From Leptolinea tardivitalis (GTDB taxonomy: Bacteria > Chloroflexota > Anaerolineae > Anaerolineales > Anaerolineaceae), in contig NZ_BBYA01000001.1 of the NCBI RefSeq assembly GCF_001050275.1, positions 186,001 through 250,000 on the forward strand: a stretch of DNA of 64,000 bases. Reading direction: 5' to 3'. Below the pieces are notes generated by a model. The model searched no databases. It was not told the origin of the DNA and saw only the letters and a program-made list of their open reading frames with translations. Positions within the stretch are counted from its first letter, which is position 1, and each line of letters begins with the position of its first letter. The translations under genes and the position numbers were made by a program. This document shows positions 57,587-64,000 of the stretch, piece after piece.

Positions 57587-57660
57587 GCAGGACGTTCCGT
57601 ACTATAATTCGCCGGTACCTAATCGCCGGTTTATACCAATAGTCAGGAAGAGGTGATCGA

Positions 57661-58500
57661 ATGAAGGAATACTTTACTTTCGAAGAAATTGATCTGGCTG
57701 CCCAGGCTGTTCAAAAGAGATTACATTACAAACCACGTGTCAGCCTGATTCTGGGTTCTGGATTGGGCGATATGGCCAATACGATTGAATCTCCGGATAT
57801 TATCCCGTTCAAAGATATTCCCAATTGGCCTGAAGCCACCGCACCCGGCCATGTCGGCCGGCTTGTGGTGGGAAAATTGGAAAATCAGGAAGTCATGGTG
57901 CTTCAGGGACGCCTGCATTACTATGAAGGCTATTCTATGGCAGAGGTGACTCTTCCCATCCGGGTGATGCAACGTCTGGGGATCGAAATCCTGGTTTTGA
58001 CCAATGCTGCCGGCGGAGTGAATCCCGGTTTTTCCGCCGGTGATGTAATGCTGATCACAGATCACATCGGGATGGTCACCATGACGGGACTTAACCCGTT
58101 ACGCGGTCCAAACCTGGATCAATTTGGCGTTCGTTTCCCGGATGTCAGTCAGGTGTATGACCGAAAGTTACAGGCTTTAGCCCGCAAGGCTGCCCAGGAG
58201 ACCAATACCCCGATGCAGGAAGGTGTTTATGTCAATCTGTCGGGTCCGTCATTTGAAACTCCTGCTGATTTACGTTTTCTTCGCACCATTGGCGCTGATG
58301 CAGTAGGTATGTCAACTGTTCCCGAAGCCATTGTGGCCGTCCACGGCCATACCCGTGTGCTCGGACTTTCCGGTATCAGTAATAAAGCCAGTCTGGATGG
58401 TTCAACTATAACCACTGGTGAAGAGGTACTGGAAGCAGGAAAAGTGCTGGTTCCAAAGATGGAGCGCATTATCCGGGCATTTTTACGCAACCTCGATTAA
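57661..58500 (+). CDS. punA: purine nucleoside phosphorylase (trimeric PNP type)
   Basis: A 279-residue protein. GSGLGDMANTIE (phosphate contact), PGHVGRLVVGKL, QGRLHYYEGY, TNAAGGVNP (active-site) and ITDHIG are the PNP signatures, and VYVNLSGPSFETPAD with MSTVPEA holds base- and ribose-contact residues. It phosphorolyses inosine and guanosine and their deoxy forms to base plus (deoxy)ribose-1-phosphate. RBS GGAAGAGG lies 8 nt upstream. TATAAT at 57603-57608 could be its -10 box, but the -35 is poor. Confidence 0.95.
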   Translation: MKEYFTFEEIDLAAQAVQKRLHYKPRVSLILGSGLGDMANTIESPDIIPFKDIPNWPEATAPGHVGRLVVGKLENQEVMVLQGRLHYYEGYSMAEVTLPIRVMQRLGIEILVLTNAAGGVNPGFSAGDVMLITDHIGMVTMTGLNPLRGPNLDQFGVRFPDVSQVYDRKLQALARKAAQETNTPMQEGVYVNLSGPSFETPADLRFLRTIGADAVGMSTVPEAIVAVHGHTRVLGLSGISNKASLDGSTITTGEEVLEAGKVLVPKMERIIRAFLRNLD

Positions 58501-58596: not shown

Positions 58597-59277
58597 ATGA
58601 TCGAAACACTTGGATTCCTGACCAAAAATGAGGTCTGGATATATATACTTGCCGGGGGGATCGGGCTTCTTTACTTGCGCAAGGTTGTTCAGGCATTGGA
58701 AGAGCGGCGGGCCGCCGTTTTTGGTTTGGAACGCGAGAATGCCAACCGTCAACTGGCTTCAGCCGGTTCCATGTTCGGGTTGATGGTACTGCTGGCTGCT
58801 GCCGAATTTGTGCTGGTGACCTTCGTTTCACCGTTCATGCCTCAGGAAAAAATCCTGCCGACACCAACCATGAACCTGCTTGCAACTCCAACAGTCACCC
58901 TGCCTCCGGCCAGCGCCAGTCCGGCAGCTGCCGGAACAGGAACGCCGGTGCCAGCGAAGTCCAATGGCTGTATTCCAGGTCAATTGGAGTTTACGAATGT
59001 GGTTCCCGGACAGGAATTTAGCAAAACAATCAAACTGAAGGGCACCACAAATGTTCCGGGTTTCGGCTTTTATAAATATGAATACGGACAACCTGGGCAA
59101 AACAACTGGGTGACCATTGCTGCAGGCAATGAAATCAAAATTGATGCAGAAATTGGTGCCTGGAATATTTCCCAATTACCACAGGGAGATTATGAATTGC
59201 GGTTGGTAGTTATCAACCAGCAGAATGAATCCCTGCCGCCCTGTGTTGTACCGATTCGAATTCTGTCTTCCCAATAA
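58597..59277 (+). CDS. two-TM membrane protein with extracellular domain
   Basis: A 226-residue protein of unknown function. Two N-terminal membrane helices (WIYILAGGIGLLYL and FGLMVLLAAAEFVLVTFV) are followed by a linker rich in Thr, Pro and Ala (about residues 88-128) and an extracellular domain starting GCIPGQLEF. That domain has Cys pairs (GCIPG ... PPCVVPI), a pattern (EFTNVVPGQEFS, IKLKGTTNVPGFGFYKYEY, QLPQGDYELRLVVIN) like small beta-sandwich domains. Next to the GNAT gene, 15 nt downstream. Confidence 0.65.
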   Translation: MIETLGFLTKNEVWIYILAGGIGLLYLRKVVQALEERRAAVFGLERENANRQLASAGSMFGLMVLLAAAEFVLVTFVSPFMPQEKILPTPTMNLLATPTVTLPPASASPAAAGTGTPVPAKSNGCIPGQLEFTNVVPGQEFSKTIKLKGTTNVPGFGFYKYEYGQPGQNNWVTIAAGNEIKIDAEIGAWNISQLPQGDYELRLVVINQQNESLPPCVVPIRILSSQ

Positions 59278-59292: not shown

Positions 59293-59844
59293 ATGCCTGA
59301 AGTCGAAATTCGCCCGGCAGTCGTAAGTGACCTGCCTTTGCTCAGCAACCTGGAACATCATTACCAGACCAATAAGGTCTGGCAGATGGAACGTTCAACA
59401 GCCGATGGGCAAATCAGAGTCCAATTCCGCGAGATAACTCTCCCAAGGAATATCCGGGTGGAGTATCCACACCAGCCAAACCTCGTTCACAGTCCGCAGA
59501 ATTCCTATTCTGTGGTTTTAGAAGCTGTGTTAAACAATACACCGGTTGGATATATCACCATCTGGCAGCAGCTTGCATCAAATGCAGCCTGGATTCGTGA
59601 TCTTGTCGTGCGAGAGCGTAATCGTCGGCAGGGAATTGGTACGGCGTTAATTCTAGCCGGGCAGGAATGGGCTGGCCGTAAACACCTGAAACGTATGATT
59701 ATCGAAATGCAAAGTAAAAATTATCCTGGTATTCAATTGGTGAGAAAACTGGGTTTTGATTTCTGCGGATACAATGATAACTACTTTGAAAATCAGGATA
59801 TTGCCATCCTGTTTTCACGGGTGATTAAAACATTGAATTCCTGA
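59293..59844 (+). CDS. GNAT-family N-acetyltransferase
   Basis: A 183-residue GCN5-related acetyltransferase. The acetyl-CoA-binding loop is seen as LVVRERNRRQGIGTALILAG (motif A: R/Q-x-x-G-x-G/A), with a preceding strand AAWIRDLVV and MIIEMQSKNYPGIQLVRKLGFDFCGY as the C-terminal motif B. RBS GGAGG lies 10 nt upstream of the ATG. Substrate unknown; small-molecule or protein amine. Confidence 0.88.
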   Translation: MPEVEIRPAVVSDLPLLSNLEHHYQTNKVWQMERSTADGQIRVQFREITLPRNIRVEYPHQPNLVHSPQNSYSVVLEAVLNNTPVGYITIWQQLASNAAWIRDLVVRERNRRQGIGTALILAGQEWAGRKHLKRMIIEMQSKNYPGIQLVRKLGFDFCGYNDNYFENQDIAILFSRVIKTLNS

Positions 59845-59850
59845 TTATTT

Positions 59851-61758
59851 ATGAATACCTGGGTAACCGGTCTTCTTGTTTTCTTCCGTACCACCAGCCA
59901 GATTCTCTCGGCGGGTATTGCTATTACAGCTTTTTCCCTGTTGCTGTATGGTCTGACATTTAACCTGCGCGATCGGGTTGCACGGACATTTGCTTTGATC
60001 ATGATCAGCGTGGCTGTCATATTTACGGGTGAAGCTCTGGCCAGTACATCCACTGATTTGGTAGAAGCCGAATTCTGGCTGAAGTTCTCTTATGTTGGAA
60101 TCACGCTTTTGCCCGCCATCTATTTGAATTTTTCTGATGCCATTCTGGCAACCACAGGACGGCCGAGCCGGTGGCGGCGTAAACTGGCTATTCGTATGTC
60201 TTATATTGCCAGTCTGGTCTTTCTTCTGGCTTTGCCCTTGGGTTTGCTAGTGGGAGAATCATCGTCGGAAATCTCAAGCGCACCGCATCTCAGCCCGACG
60301 ATTTTTACCGGATTCCTCTTCCTGTACTATTTTGTAACCATGGTAATGGCATGGATCAATTTTGTGCGTTCCTATATGCGCACCACCACACCGACCAGCC
60401 GCCGTCGAATGGCTTACCTTATCACCGGAGCACTGGCACCGGCCATTGGATCATTCCCATTTCTACTGTATAACTCGCAGATCGCTCTCGAGCATTCTCT
60501 GGCTTTCTGGACGATTTCTGCCCTGAGCAACTTGATCATGGGGGGATTGATTGTATTGATGGCTTATTCTGTAGCTTTCTTTGGTGTCCCCTGGCCAGAC
60601 AGGGTAGTTAAAAGCCGCCTGTTGAAGTGGATCATTCGCGGTCCAGTTACGGCAATTATTACACTTGGGCTGGTCACAGTTGTACGGCGGGCAGGGAATG
60701 TCTTTGGTAATCCGTACAGCGGTATGGTCCCGTTCATCATGGTAATTGCGATACTGCTATGTGAATACATGGTCACATTGTTTTCACCGGTATGGGAGCG
60801 GCTGCTTTTTTATGGAAATGATCAGAAAGACCTGGAGTTACTCAATAATCTGGAACAACGGCTGGTCACCCGCAATGACCTCAGCCAATTCCTTGAAATG
60901 ATCCTGGCTGCCGTCCGCGACCGACTTCAAGCAGGCGGAGCATTTATTGCCGCCATCAATGGAGACGGCATGGAGCTGGTCAAAACGACAGGCAATATCG
61001 ATTGGTTGGATGAAGAAAACAGTTCTGTTGAACTTGTTGAGCTTGTCCGTCAGACGAACAATTCAATGGAAACGTTCCTGTGGAATAAAACCCTGATACT
61101 TCCGCTTTATCATCAGGAAACAGATGATTCTTCTGAGTTGCTGGGTTTGCTGGGTGTAACAGGGATAAAATCGGAACATCTGGAACTCGAACAAAAACAA
61201 AGTCTGGAACAACTGGCTTTCCGGGCGACCATTGCGCTACGTGATCGGCATATTCAACAACAATTATTCCGCTCGCTTGAACAATTAACACCGGATATTG
61301 ATTATCTGTCAGAGTTACGGGCTGCCGGACGGTATGAACCAGAGCATGTACTTGATATTACCCGTCCAGTGGATGAAGAGATGACCACCTGGGTCAAAGA
61401 TGCCCTGACGCATTACTGGGGTGGTCCTCGCCTTACGGAGAGCCCGTTGTTAAGCCTCAAAATTGTTCAAGATATGCTGGAGACGCATGATGGTAATTAT
61501 CCGAATGCACTCCGTGCGCTCTTAAAAACTGCCATCGAAAAAGTCCGCCCCGGTGGAGAACGACGGTTTACCGGTGAATGGATGTTGTATAACATTCTGG
61601 AAATGAAATTTCTCGAAGGTAAGAAGGTGCGTGAAATTGCCACAAAGCTTGCGATGTCAGAAGCTGATTTATATCGCAAGCAGAGGGTAGCATTGGAAGC
61701 AGTCGCAAGAGAAATCGCACAAATGGAAAAAGAAGCCAGGGAATCTCACACAAATTGA
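59851..61758 (+). CDS. multi-TM GAF-domain sensor-like protein without kinase domain
   Basis: A 635-residue protein. About nine membrane segments (residues 10-315) resemble the N-terminal multi-TM sensor regions of some histidine kinases. A coiled region (LELLNNLEQRLVTRNDLSQFLEMI) leads to a GAF-like domain (about 350-470: RDRLQAGGAFIAAI, LILPLYHQE, SLEQLAFRATIALRDR). After it there is no HisKA/HATPase, GGDEF or EAL domain; instead a helical C-terminus (500-635) ends with a possible HTH (VREIATKLAMSEADLYRKQRVALEAVAREI). It may be a membrane-tethered regulator that binds DNA or a protein partner. 6 nt after the GNAT gene. Confidence 0.7.
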   Translation: MNTWVTGLLVFFRTTSQILSAGIAITAFSLLLYGLTFNLRDRVARTFALIMISVAVIFTGEALASTSTDLVEAEFWLKFSYVGITLLPAIYLNFSDAILATTGRPSRWRRKLAIRMSYIASLVFLLALPLGLLVGESSSEISSAPHLSPTIFTGFLFLYYFVTMVMAWINFVRSYMRTTTPTSRRRMAYLITGALAPAIGSFPFLLYNSQIALEHSLAFWTISALSNLIMGGLIVLMAYSVAFFGVPWPDRVVKSRLLKWIIRGPVTAIITLGLVTVVRRAGNVFGNPYSGMVPFIMVIAILLCEYMVTLFSPVWERLLFYGNDQKDLELLNNLEQRLVTRNDLSQFLEMILAAVRDRLQAGGAFIAAINGDGMELVKTTGNIDWLDEENSSVELVELVRQTNNSMETFLWNKTLILPLYHQETDDSSELLGLLGVTGIKSEHLELEQKQSLEQLAFRATIALRDRHIQQQLFRSLEQLTPDIDYLSELRAAGRYEPEHVLDITRPVDEEMTTWVKDALTHYWGGPRLTESPLLSLKIVQDMLETHDGNYPNALRALLKTAIEKVRPGGERRFTGEWMLYNILEMKFLEGKKVREIATKLAMSEADLYRKQRVALEAVAREIAQMEKEARESHTN

Positions 61759-61843: not shown

Positions 61844-62788
61844 ATGGTGGGGAAACCTCAAACAATCCCGATAGAAATTATGCAGGATGAAATGGACGAA
61901 GGTTGGTGGGCAGCCGTTCTGGCTGACGAGGAAAGCTCTACAAGCGATTTCACAGACACACCCGTTATGGCTCAACAATCAACAGAACTTATGCTGGTTG
62001 ACTGGAAACGGGTTAAATCCATCTTTGAAAACGATGAGATCATTGAACTTCAGGTTTATGGATATAACCGTGGCGGTCTTCTGGTTCAAGATCATGGAAT
62101 TCAGGGATTTGTACCTGTTTCGCATCTGATTGAAATGCCTTGCGGTGTGGATGAAGAAGAACGAAAAGCCACACTATCAGAATACATTGGCCGTTCATTG
62201 AGTTTGAAAGTTATTGAATGCGAACCATCATTGGATCGGATTGTTCTTTCCGAGCGGGCGGCTCAGGCTGGTGAAGGCCGACGGAAGCAACTTTTCAGCA
62301 GCTTGAAAATTGGCGATGTTGTTAAAGGGAAAGTCACTAACATTACGGATTTCGGTGTTTTCCTTGACCTGGGCGGTGTGGAAGGTTTGATTCATGTTTC
62401 AGAGCTTTCCTGGGGACGTGTCCAACACCCCGGTGATATTCTCTCCATCGGCGATTGTGCTGAAGCCATGGTTTTACAGATCAACGAAGAGACATCAAGG
62501 GTAGCCCTGTCTTACAAACGGCTGCAAAAAAACCCTTGGGATTTGGTTTCAGCGAAATATGTACCTGGTGATGAAGTACCGGCTTTTGTAACCACGATCA
62601 CCCGCTTTGGGGTGTTTGCCCGTCTTAACGAAGGTATTGAGGGATTGATCCATATCTCATCAATCGAGTTTGATCAGACCTCCCAGACTCTTGAAGAGTT
62701 ATTCTCTCCTGGAATGCCCATAAAGGTACAAATCTTGCATATAGATCCAGACCGACGAAGACTCGGTCTGGGATATATACAGAACTGA
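61844..62788 (+). CDS. S1-domain RNA-binding protein (ribosomal protein S1-like)
   Basis: A 314-residue protein with three S1 repeats, roughly residues 62-135, 150-220 and 234-306. The second is the clearest: GDVVKGKVTNITDFGVFLDLGGVEGLIHVSELS; the third has ITRFGVFARLNEGIEGLIHISSI. The N-terminal 45 residues are acidic. It probably binds mRNA at the ribosome like the short S1 proteins of Gram-positive bacteria. RBS GGAGGG is 8 nt before the ATG. Last bases overlap the ftsK start as TGATG. Confidence 0.9.
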   Translation: MVGKPQTIPIEIMQDEMDEGWWAAVLADEESSTSDFTDTPVMAQQSTELMLVDWKRVKSIFENDEIIELQVYGYNRGGLLVQDHGIQGFVPVSHLIEMPCGVDEEERKATLSEYIGRSLSLKVIECEPSLDRIVLSERAAQAGEGRRKQLFSSLKIGDVVKGKVTNITDFGVFLDLGGVEGLIHVSELSWGRVQHPGDILSIGDCAEAMVLQINEETSRVALSYKRLQKNPWDLVSAKYVPGDEVPAFVTTITRFGVFARLNEGIEGLIHISSIEFDQTSQTLEELFSPGMPIKVQILHIDPDRRRLGLGYIQN

Positions 62789-64000
62789 TGATTTCAAACA
62801 TTCCTGAAGACGAAAATCCCTCCGGCGAAATACCTGCCGAAGAGATCGATACAGCATCTCTGCCTGTTTTTACCGATACCCATGATGCAGGTTTTGAGTG
62901 GACCGGTAAAGACGGTATAGGTGTCATTCTTATCATAACCAGTATACTGATCTTGTTTGGTCTGACACAGATCAGCTCAGGTGCATTCCTTACTCCTTTC
63001 ACGGCATTCTTGAGGCGTTGGCTGGGATGGGGCAGTGTGTTATTTGCCCTGCAATGCGGTTATGCCGGTGTGGCGGCTCTCCGTCAACCACATGGTACAC
63101 GTTCATATCCTTTGATTCAGATTCTCGGGGCTGAAGGAATGTTGTTTTCCCTGATGGCTCTATTATCCGTGTGGGGTGGTAATTCGGTTGACCGGGCAGC
63201 GGCCGGACAGGACGGCGGTCTGGTGGGTTGGGGATTGGCGCGTATGGGCGAATTTCTCCTTCCCGGTGTTTTTAATATACTGCTCTGGTTCAGTCTGCTC
63301 ATCGTAACAACAGTCGCCACCTTATGGCCAATACGACACAGCATTGTAAAAAAGGCCGTTGTCCGGATGACACCTCCTCAAGCCAGATCGCAACAACCAC
63401 TGCATACAAAACAGCCTTCACCGGTCGAAGAAGAACCCCCAATACAGAAACCCATTCCCCATTCATTAGACAGCCTGGCAGAAATCCTCAAAGAGGATGA
63501 AATGACGAATGATGCAGCCCCTGCACAGGCAGATATCATTCATACGGCTGAATCAGGGAAGAATGGTATCGTCCGCCTCCCTCCAATAAATTTGCTTGCC
63601 CGCGAACAGGTGGAGAAACCCGATCCACAGGTGATTCACCAATTGGCGGAACAAATTGAAGTAACCCTCAATGAATTCGGCGTACCGTCAACAGTCACCG
63701 GATATCGGATCGGCCCTACGGTGACACAATTTGCCGTTGAGCCCGGCTTTATTGAAAAAGTTGGAATAGACGGCAATATTACCCAGCAGAAAATCCGGGT
63801 AGCTCAAATATCCGCTCTGTCACGTGATCTGGCATTGGCGCTTAAAGCCAAACGTTTGCGAATTGAAGCGCCAGTTCCCGGCCAATCATTTCTCGGAATT
63901 GAGATTCCCAATACCAATAATACTGTCGTGCGGCTTCGGCCCATCCTTGAATCTGAGTTATTTACCAGAACCAAATCCCCGTTAACTCTTGCACTGGGCA
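62788..64000 (+). CDS. ftsK: FtsK/SpoIIIE-type DNA translocase, truncated by window end
   Basis: The frame opens at ATG 62788 and is open to the window end (about 404 residues visible). The cytosolic N-terminus is acidic, with membrane segments following around residues 45-65, 75-95, 109-126 and 155-180. A Pro-rich linker follows, then the FtsK alpha domain: LPPINLLAREQV, TVTGYRIGPTVTQFAVEPG, KIRVAQISALSRDLALALK, and FLGIEIPN. The sequence stops at TLALG, just before the expected Walker A (GKDxxG). It pumps DNA during chromosome segregation. Overlap with the S1 gene by 1 nt suggests co-translation. Confidence 0.93.
   Translation, partial: MISNIPEDENPSGEIPAEEIDTASLPVFTDTHDAGFEWTGKDGIGVILIITSILILFGLTQISSGAFLTPFTAFLRRWLGWGSVLFALQCGYAGVAALRQPHGTRSYPLIQILGAEGMLFSLMALLSVWGGNSVDRAAAGQDGGLVGWGLARMGEFLLPGVFNILLWFSLLIVTTVATLWPIRHSIVKKAVVRMTPPQARSQQPLHTKQPSPVEEEPPIQKPIPHSLDSLAEILKEDEMTNDAAPAQADIIHTAESGKNGIVRLPPINLLAREQVEKPDPQVIHQLAEQIEVTLNEFGVPSTVTGYRIGPTVTQFAVEPGFIEKVGIDGNITQQKIRVAQISALSRDLALALKAKRLRIEAPVPGQSFLGIEIPNTNNTVVRLRPILESELFTRTKSPLTLALG

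Follow-up and report, generated by a model that had tools for sequence, protein, structure and literature searches.

Leptolinea tardivitalis encodes a receptor with nine transmembrane (TM) helices that is probably a membrane-embedded one-component transcription regulator, whose sigma-4/ArpU-like helix-turn-helix (HTH) would bind one conserved DNA site; we give this reading a probability of about 0.75. The gene lies in the window, which is the whole 64,000-nucleotide stretch of DNA that was analysed. The computations show the architecture of the protein, its topology pattern, the HTH-type fold of its modelled C-terminus, its class-wide presence and an invariant recognition-helix segment. The gene and its parts, in positions of the window, are these:

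59851..61758, + strand: receptor gene (ATG start, 635 aa), with nine TM helices, a GAF-like domain, a long helix and a sigma-4-like HTH module
59854..60807, + strand: nine-TM region, HisKA_7TM-like (residues 2-319; Pfam, model and loop charge)
60871..61185, + strand: GAF-like domain (residues 341-445; model; GAF_2 in 14 of 48 sequences, the window protein itself having none)
61186..61335, + strand: long helix after the GAF-like domain (residues 446-495; model)
61375..61752, + strand: C-terminal module, widespread in the phylum (residues 509-634; profile matches and model)
61573..61704, + strand: sigma-region-4-like HTH (residues 575-618; fold and profile matches)
61657..61704, + strand: recognition-helix segment (residues 603-618; best conserved of the segments compared)

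The full-length AlphaFold2 model, built from 80 sequences with the window protein included, has a mean pLDDT of 81.4. In it, nine long membrane helices are followed by a GAF-like alpha/beta domain and then a long helix, and the C-terminus is formed by a helical module. The Pfam family HisKA_7TM (PF16927) matches residues 25-211 with an E-value of 1.6e-11 and 44.9 bits, above its cut-off of 28.6. The GAF-like fold at residues 341-445 comes from the model, where secondary structure was read by eye; a Pfam GAF match is absent from the window protein up to an E-value of 1. The helix at 446-495 is possibly a coiled-coil signalling helix. When the window protein and 47 orthologues were scanned against Pfam at E ≤ 0.01, HisKA_7TM was found in 42 of the 48 sequences, GAF_2 in 14, GAF in 12, GAF_3 in 9, Sigma70_r4 and DUF1492 in 4 each, Sigma70_ECF in 1, and two odd families in 1 each. 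None of these nine families is a kinase, cyclase or phosphodiesterase, such families being matched by 0/48 sequences at an E-value of 0.01, and a HisKA/HATPase_c transmitter, the mark of a sensor histidine kinase, was found in 0/48 at E ≤ 0.01. For the window protein, NCBIfam gave nothing above any cut-off. PADLOC gave no match. The sequence-only reading had described a nine-TM/GAF protein lacking kinase, cyclase or phosphodiesterase output, and the open reading frame, the model, the loop charges and the absence of enzyme families from all 48 sequences confirm that description.

In the AlphaFold2 model, the nine membrane helices span residues 2-34, 42-66, 70-100, 108-127, 151-177, 181-206, 216-245, 250-285 and 292-319. 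Across 80 sequences, window included, the mean number of lysines plus arginines is 1.96, 4.64, 5.85, 5.15 and 2.42 in the five inside segments and 0.00, 0.30, 1.18, 0.29 and 0.03 in the five outside segments, with borders set by hand and segments of unequal length (9-23 residues). By the positive-inside rule, the N-terminus is outside, and the GAF-like domain and the C-terminal module are cytoplasmic. A Foldseek search with the full-length model returned mainly GPCRs, with E-values of about 1e-3, none at E ≤ 0.001, and an rmsd of mostly 6-9 Å; these rows are taken as reflecting a generic 7TM bundle.

The HTH-like segment that had been proposed from the letters of the helical C-terminus corresponds to residues 596-615, which fall inside the HTH of the model. 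Modelled alone (residues 455-635), the module reached a pLDDT of 85.7 and a pTM of 0.68, and the proposed structural comparison with sigma-like HTH domains yielded a sigma region 4-like fold. Sigma region 4 domains made up the top PDB rows in Foldseek (3hug, probability 1.00, E 0.26), with KorA and others ranking below them, and no PDB match reached E ≤ 1e-3. The top rows in VIA-align were structures of phage 21 Q (6p18, Z 8.7 over 100 aa at 4.1 Å; 6p1b, Z 8.5 over 99 aa at 3.2 Å), and sigma region 4 was represented by SigL (6dv9, Z 7.9, 73 aa, 3.1 Å), BldN (6dxo, Z 7.2, 59 aa, 1.4 Å) and WhiG (6pfj, Z 7.2, 60 aa, 1.4 Å). Since helical models can attain such Z scores by chance, the case for the HTH rests on agreement with sequence profiles. 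Among 80 C-terminal sequences, the profile phrog_36 (transcriptional regulator) matched all 80, the window protein with an E-value of 3.9e-6 over residues 581-628 only, while phrog_248 (transcriptional activator) matched 77, a phage sigma family 23 and phrog_79 (“anti-termination protein Q-like”) 7. In a mixed set of 25 module sequences, phrog_248 matched 17, phrog_36 14 and phrog_79 7, and at E ≤ 0.01 the NCBIfam models sigma70-ECF and phage_arpU (TIGR01637) matched 13 and 4, respectively, with the window protein below the curated cut-offs. As a test for an ArpU/RinA-type phage regulator, TIGR01637 finds some module sequences and not the window protein.

Below the Pfam cut-offs, the window protein matches Sigma70_r4_2 at residues 582-605 (E 0.019, 15.0 bits against 25.7) and, slightly better, Nterm_IS4 at residues 570-621 (E 0.013, 16.2 bits against 25). 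A known non-DNA-binding domain at the C-terminus would have spoken against the HTH, and none was found there above a curated Pfam cut-off; nor were kinase remnants found at the C-terminus of any of the 48 sequences. A sequence search of the PDB with orthologues alone gave nothing significant, the best matches being alginate lyases (E 0.09-0.18), with sigma at 0.54; with paralogues added, the best E-value was 0.0023 (Lin0861), with sigma at 0.02. A search for viral relatives gave nine pattern matches, of which none was confirmed; since the patterns were built on motifs specific to the orthologues, this search would not catch a distant phage relative.

Conservation is concentrated in the module. 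Among the 48 sequences, which share 28-82% identity with the window protein, mean conservation is 0.853 for residues 603-618, 0.682 for 571-602, 0.648 for 509-570, 0.509 for the TM region and 0.426 for the GAF-like domain; of the segments compared, the linker at 496-508 has the lowest value (0.284). S603, E604, D606, Y608, R609, K610, Q611 and A614 are invariant in 48/48, and so are W523, G524 and G525 in the 509-570 part. In 20 paralogues of the module, positions 606, 608, 610 and 611 vary (the commonest residues being T/Q, Y/H/R, D/E/A and R/Q/H, respectively), whereas L583 and A614 are present in 20/20, Y580 and P567 in 19/20 and R609 in 17/20. Eight positions of the recognition-helix segment are invariant in orthologues while the segment varies in paralogues, the pattern expected if the protein reads a single, unchanging DNA site; this descriptive contrast between exposed helix and core takes exposure from the sigma-4 analogy and sets orthologues beside paralogues that are more diverged overall. 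The invariance could also stem from a protein partner.

All 61 genomes of relatives searched, the source genome included, contain a match, which is partial in two (59 residues in G008, 272 in G025) and in two pieces in three others (G046, G053, G058). Within a sample of the class, 193 of 199 genomes match at 1e-5, as do 129 of the 131 good genomes, and the best E-value is 3e-40 or better in 188 (table read by eye); five weaker matches (G101, G121, G166, G216, G248) may be fragments or module paralogues. In a sample of the phylum, 82 of 301 genomes match, same-class genomes counted in; out-of-class matches over most of the length occur only in families f76, f77, f87, f113 and f116, the others covering the C-terminal module only. 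Among the best 80 of 570 confirmed relatives, those with names are Anaerolineales: two Leptolinea MAGs share 82 and 81% identity with the window protein, and Longilinea arvoryzae, Levilinea saccharolytica, Anaerolinea thermolimosa and Thermanaerothrix daxensis share 53-56%. The receptor protein is single-copy in the source genome. One contig of Levilinea saccharolytica (NZ_LGCM01000042.1; L118 and L119) holds two equal-scoring gene copies in opposite orientation, either an assembly artefact or an inverted duplication. Three genus-level comparisons give a dN of 0.12-0.15 where synonymous sites are close to saturated, and the GAF region changes fastest. Orthologues throughout the class, together with purifying selection, indicate that the architecture is more than chance.

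The module is also found on other proteins. A profile of the orthologue C-terminus matches a protein in each of 20 loci, which were taken from C-terminal matches among the relatives and the phylum sample and ten of which were Pfam-scanned. The module lies N-terminally in receiver proteins (L185, with the receiver C-terminal, and L189), in STAND-type ATPase-TPR proteins (L183, L187, L197) and in a TPR protein (L184). It lies C-terminally in a protein with HisKA_7TM just under the cut-off (L182, 5.4e-6), in one with a weak GAF_3 (L193) and in two that have no Pfam match and, by eye, membrane helices (L192, L198). A protein terminus is a usual place for a DNA-binding domain. Across the phylum, the module is matched at 1e-3 in 134 of 251 genomes, and the weakest of these matches may be sigma factors. 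Five of the genomes have 11-17 matches each, 17 being a lower bound because the scoring covered 17 candidates per genome. These expansions are in G349, G372, G393, G444 and G473, of phylum families f102 and f109.

The source genome carries a second copy of the module (L231:5025-6923, - strand, contig G000:C12), on a BPD_transp_2 sugar ABC permease with a GAF domain. The fusion gene is flanked by genes for a binding protein and an ABC ATPase, and the permease-GAF-HTH protein is possibly a transporter that also acts as a regulator. Its GAF-module part, from about residue 292 on, has some match in 25 of the 61 genomes, nearly all of them short; whole-query matches to this part occur in three (the source genome, G003 with an internal TGA, and G005). 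Elsewhere, the source genome encodes a HisKA_7TM-PAS-PocR-GGDEF protein (L232:1721-4966, - strand, contig G000:C13), with the same sensor domain and an enzyme output.

The receptor gene stands in a recurrent block, of which the window contains the following genes:

57661..58500, + strand: pnp, purine nucleoside phosphorylase (name by eye; 75 of 79 loci)
58597..59277, + strand: 226-aa conserved protein (76 of 79 loci; no Pfam family at E ≤ 0.1)
59293..59844, + strand: GNAT acetyltransferase, next upstream gene (Pfam; 77 of 79 loci)
61844..62788, + strand: S1-domain protein, next downstream gene (Pfam; 77 of 79 loci)
62788..63999, + strand: ftsK-like gene, which runs off the window (name by eye; 64 of 79 loci)

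In 79 named loci, the recurrent order is lspA-rluD-ltaE-pnp-226aa-GNAT-receptor gene-S1-ftsK, with ltaE found in 63 loci, lspA and rluD in 53 and ileS in 18; except for GNAT and S1, the genes were named by eye, and many loci stop at a contig end or flank limit. The receptor gene is separated from GNAT by a median of 23 bases and from S1 by a median of 22. The 226-aa protein appears, by eye, to have a membrane anchor and an extracytoplasmic domain, and it is a candidate partner of the receptor. In the wider class, BLAST at 1e-5 places GNAT, S1 and ftsK near the gene in many loci, not all; they were not found near it in, for example, L071, L072, L076, L089, L091, L093 and L094. At the same threshold, 11 out-of-class loci (L060-L070), extending as far as 5 kb to either side of the gene, yielded none of the nine block genes. 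There, a receiver-domain protein adjoins the gene in L061, L062, L065 and L070, with GGDEF or hybrid-kinase genes in some of these four, and a pyridine-nucleotide oxidoreductase adjoins the gene in L063 and L068. From the eight loci listed, ten neighbouring proteins of six were scanned, and the out-of-class neighbourhood is in part a signalling setting.

Phylogenetic footprinting of the regions upstream of nine block genes (52 to 78 regions per gene, against a first-order resampled background; ileS, with 11 regions, was left out) revealed no clear operator. Any region of 40 bases or more was retained, including those that extend into the gene upstream, which means that some words can be coding. 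The strongest words are GATATAAT, an extended -10 present before pnp in 41 of 75 regions, GGTAAAAT, which precedes lspA in 22 of 52, and words resembling a Shine-Dalgarno sequence, which precede S1 in 12 of 77. Weaker words that exceed the shuffles, of which those before the 226-aa gene, lspA and GNAT come from loci L100-L179 and may be coding or regulatory, are CGCGGCGT before the 226-aa gene (11/75), GCGCGTGT- and GGCACGAA-type words before lspA (8/52 each), GTGCGGGT before GNAT (7/76), TGGG-type dyads before ftsK (8/64) and GGAAGGTT before the receptor gene itself (6/78). In the window, the -10 site is this:

57600..57608, + strand: -10-like element upstream of pnp, where extended -10 words are conserved in relatives

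In the Anaerolineales loci, the extended -10 words upstream of pnp (TCTGATATAAT-like) occur without a conserved -35, and when 63 of 73 pnp regions, the window included, were aligned on the -10, no conserved columns were found beyond it and a few adjacent bases.

Transmembrane transcription regulators (TTRs) such as ToxR, TcpP and CadC are the nearest known proteins in kind. The sequence-only reading had proposed a membrane-bound regulator that binds DNA directly and had called such proteins unusual. The HTH part of that interpretation is upheld by the fold, the phage regulator profiles, the weaker ArpU and sigma models and the partner domains of the module; the word “unusual” does not stand, since the available part of a Pfam-based 2023 census counts 50,302 TTRs (PMC10269533). 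In that part, 56% are single-pass, and apparently 17% have two TM regions and 27% more (PMC10269533). It names Chloroflexota among the groups rich in hybrid TTRs, which have two-component domains, and states, of hybrids alone, that they are not conserved at the genus, class or phylum level (PMC10269533). Lacking any two-component domain, the receptor does not belong to the hybrid TTRs. Its nine helices and positive-inside pattern give it the at least one TM region of a TTR, but Pfam does not recognize a DNA-binding domain in it, as the census would require, Sigma70_r4_2 lying below the cut-off; the HTH is indicated instead by the fold and other profiles. Regulators of the ToxR type have one TM helix, an N-terminal DNA-binding domain and a periplasmic sensor, according to the available part of PMC5936718, whereas the receptor has nine TM helices, a GAF-like domain and a C-terminal, cytoplasmic sigma-4-like HTH module, a topology that rules out the ToxR family. 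Its occurrence in almost every genome sampled from a class also sets the receptor apart from known TTRs.

With HisKA_7TM proteins, the receptor shares the N-terminal 7TM sensor domain, mentioned as a kinase sensor domain in the available part of PMC5847659, but the HTH module replaces the enzyme output. The module resembles the phage regulators of phrog_36, phrog_248 and, in some module sequences, ArpU (TIGR01637) in its HTH profile, and phage 21 Q in a similar fold over about 100 residues; in contrast to these phage regulators, it is joined here to a membrane receptor, and the profile match is confined to residues 581-628. The HTH fold is also like that of sigma-70 region 4 (59-60 residues at 1.4 Å to BldN and WhiG). 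Since no region-2 family was matched (Pfam, window and 48 sequences) and the fold is like that of region 4 only, the receptor is not a sigma factor. No description of the 9TM-GAF-HTH architecture, and no paper on a Chloroflexi HisKA_7TM protein with an HTH, was found in the open-access literature; the available parts of PMC1183210 and PMC7159879 contain nothing on this architecture.

The fold permits readings other than DNA binding. Sigma region 4 binds polymerase as well as DNA, and the sigma-like domain of PhyR binds an anti-sigma-like partner. It is conceivable, though unlikely, that the module is a sigma mimic whose target is a protein (RNA polymerase or an anti-sigma-like factor) and not DNA, with the receptor sequestering or recruiting this partner at the membrane. 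An HTH alone does not explain the 509-570 part and its invariant W523, G524 and G525, which would suit such a role. However, a sigma mimic would be expected to lose its DNA contacts, and the invariants of the recognition helix include R609, K610 and Q611. Rather less probable is a Q-like antitermination activity, in which the module would load onto RNA polymerase at a DNA element and alter termination from the membrane. Phage 21 Q (6p18) heads the structural matches and gives the longest of them, and phrog_79 matches 7/80 and 7/25 sequences, but the lead of 6p18 over 6dv9 is 0.8 in Z, a tie by VIA-align, and phrog_36 and phrog_248 match more members and match them better.

Two other readings keep the domains but change their fate. 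Proteolytic release is known for some membrane-bound regulators, and the poorly conserved linker at 496-508 might let proteolysis free a soluble GAF-HTH part for action in the cytoplasm. No conserved cleavage motif is apparent in that linker, however, and CadC acts uncleaved, according to the available part of PMC5936718. Release from a tethered precursor is very improbable. We reject a decayed sensor histidine kinase without function, the least credible reading of all: the N-terminal domain is indeed the HisKA_7TM sensor domain, but kinase remnants are found in none of the 48 sequences, conservation is highest in the C-terminal module, dN is 0.12-0.15 against nearly saturated synonymous sites, and 193 of 199 class genomes have a match.

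The preferred reading is thus that of a membrane-embedded one-component regulator, for which we infer DNA binding, dimerisation, a signal, activation or repression, and targets. The nine-helix HisKA_7TM-type receptor and its cytoplasmic GAF-like domain would sense a signal, and the change would be relayed through the long helix 446-495 to the C-terminal module. The sigma-region-4/ArpU-like HTH of the module would then bind one conserved DNA site, altering transcription at promoters brought to the membrane. A domain with the shape of the part of sigma factors that binds promoters, in a protein nearly universal among the sampled genomes of its class, suggests that the receptor probably switches genes directly from the membrane. 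More tentatively, and with somewhat less than even odds, the module may be a DNA-binding module of the Chloroflexota that is carried on receptors, an ABC permease, receivers and STAND ATPases, with the 9TM-GAF version, as a core gene, reading one site and coupling the state of the envelope to the housekeeping block that includes S1 and ftsK.

The invariant recognition-helix segment leads to the prediction of one DNA motif for the whole class. Since the HTH falls below Pfam cut-offs, the receptor, and possibly much of the module family, could escape Pfam-based surveys. The deep conservation of a membrane regulator is worth notice because hybrid TTRs, as the census has it, are not conserved at the genus, class or phylum level. 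If the preferred reading is true, a multi-pass receptor would be its own transcription factor, kept in almost all the sampled genomes of a large and little-studied class.
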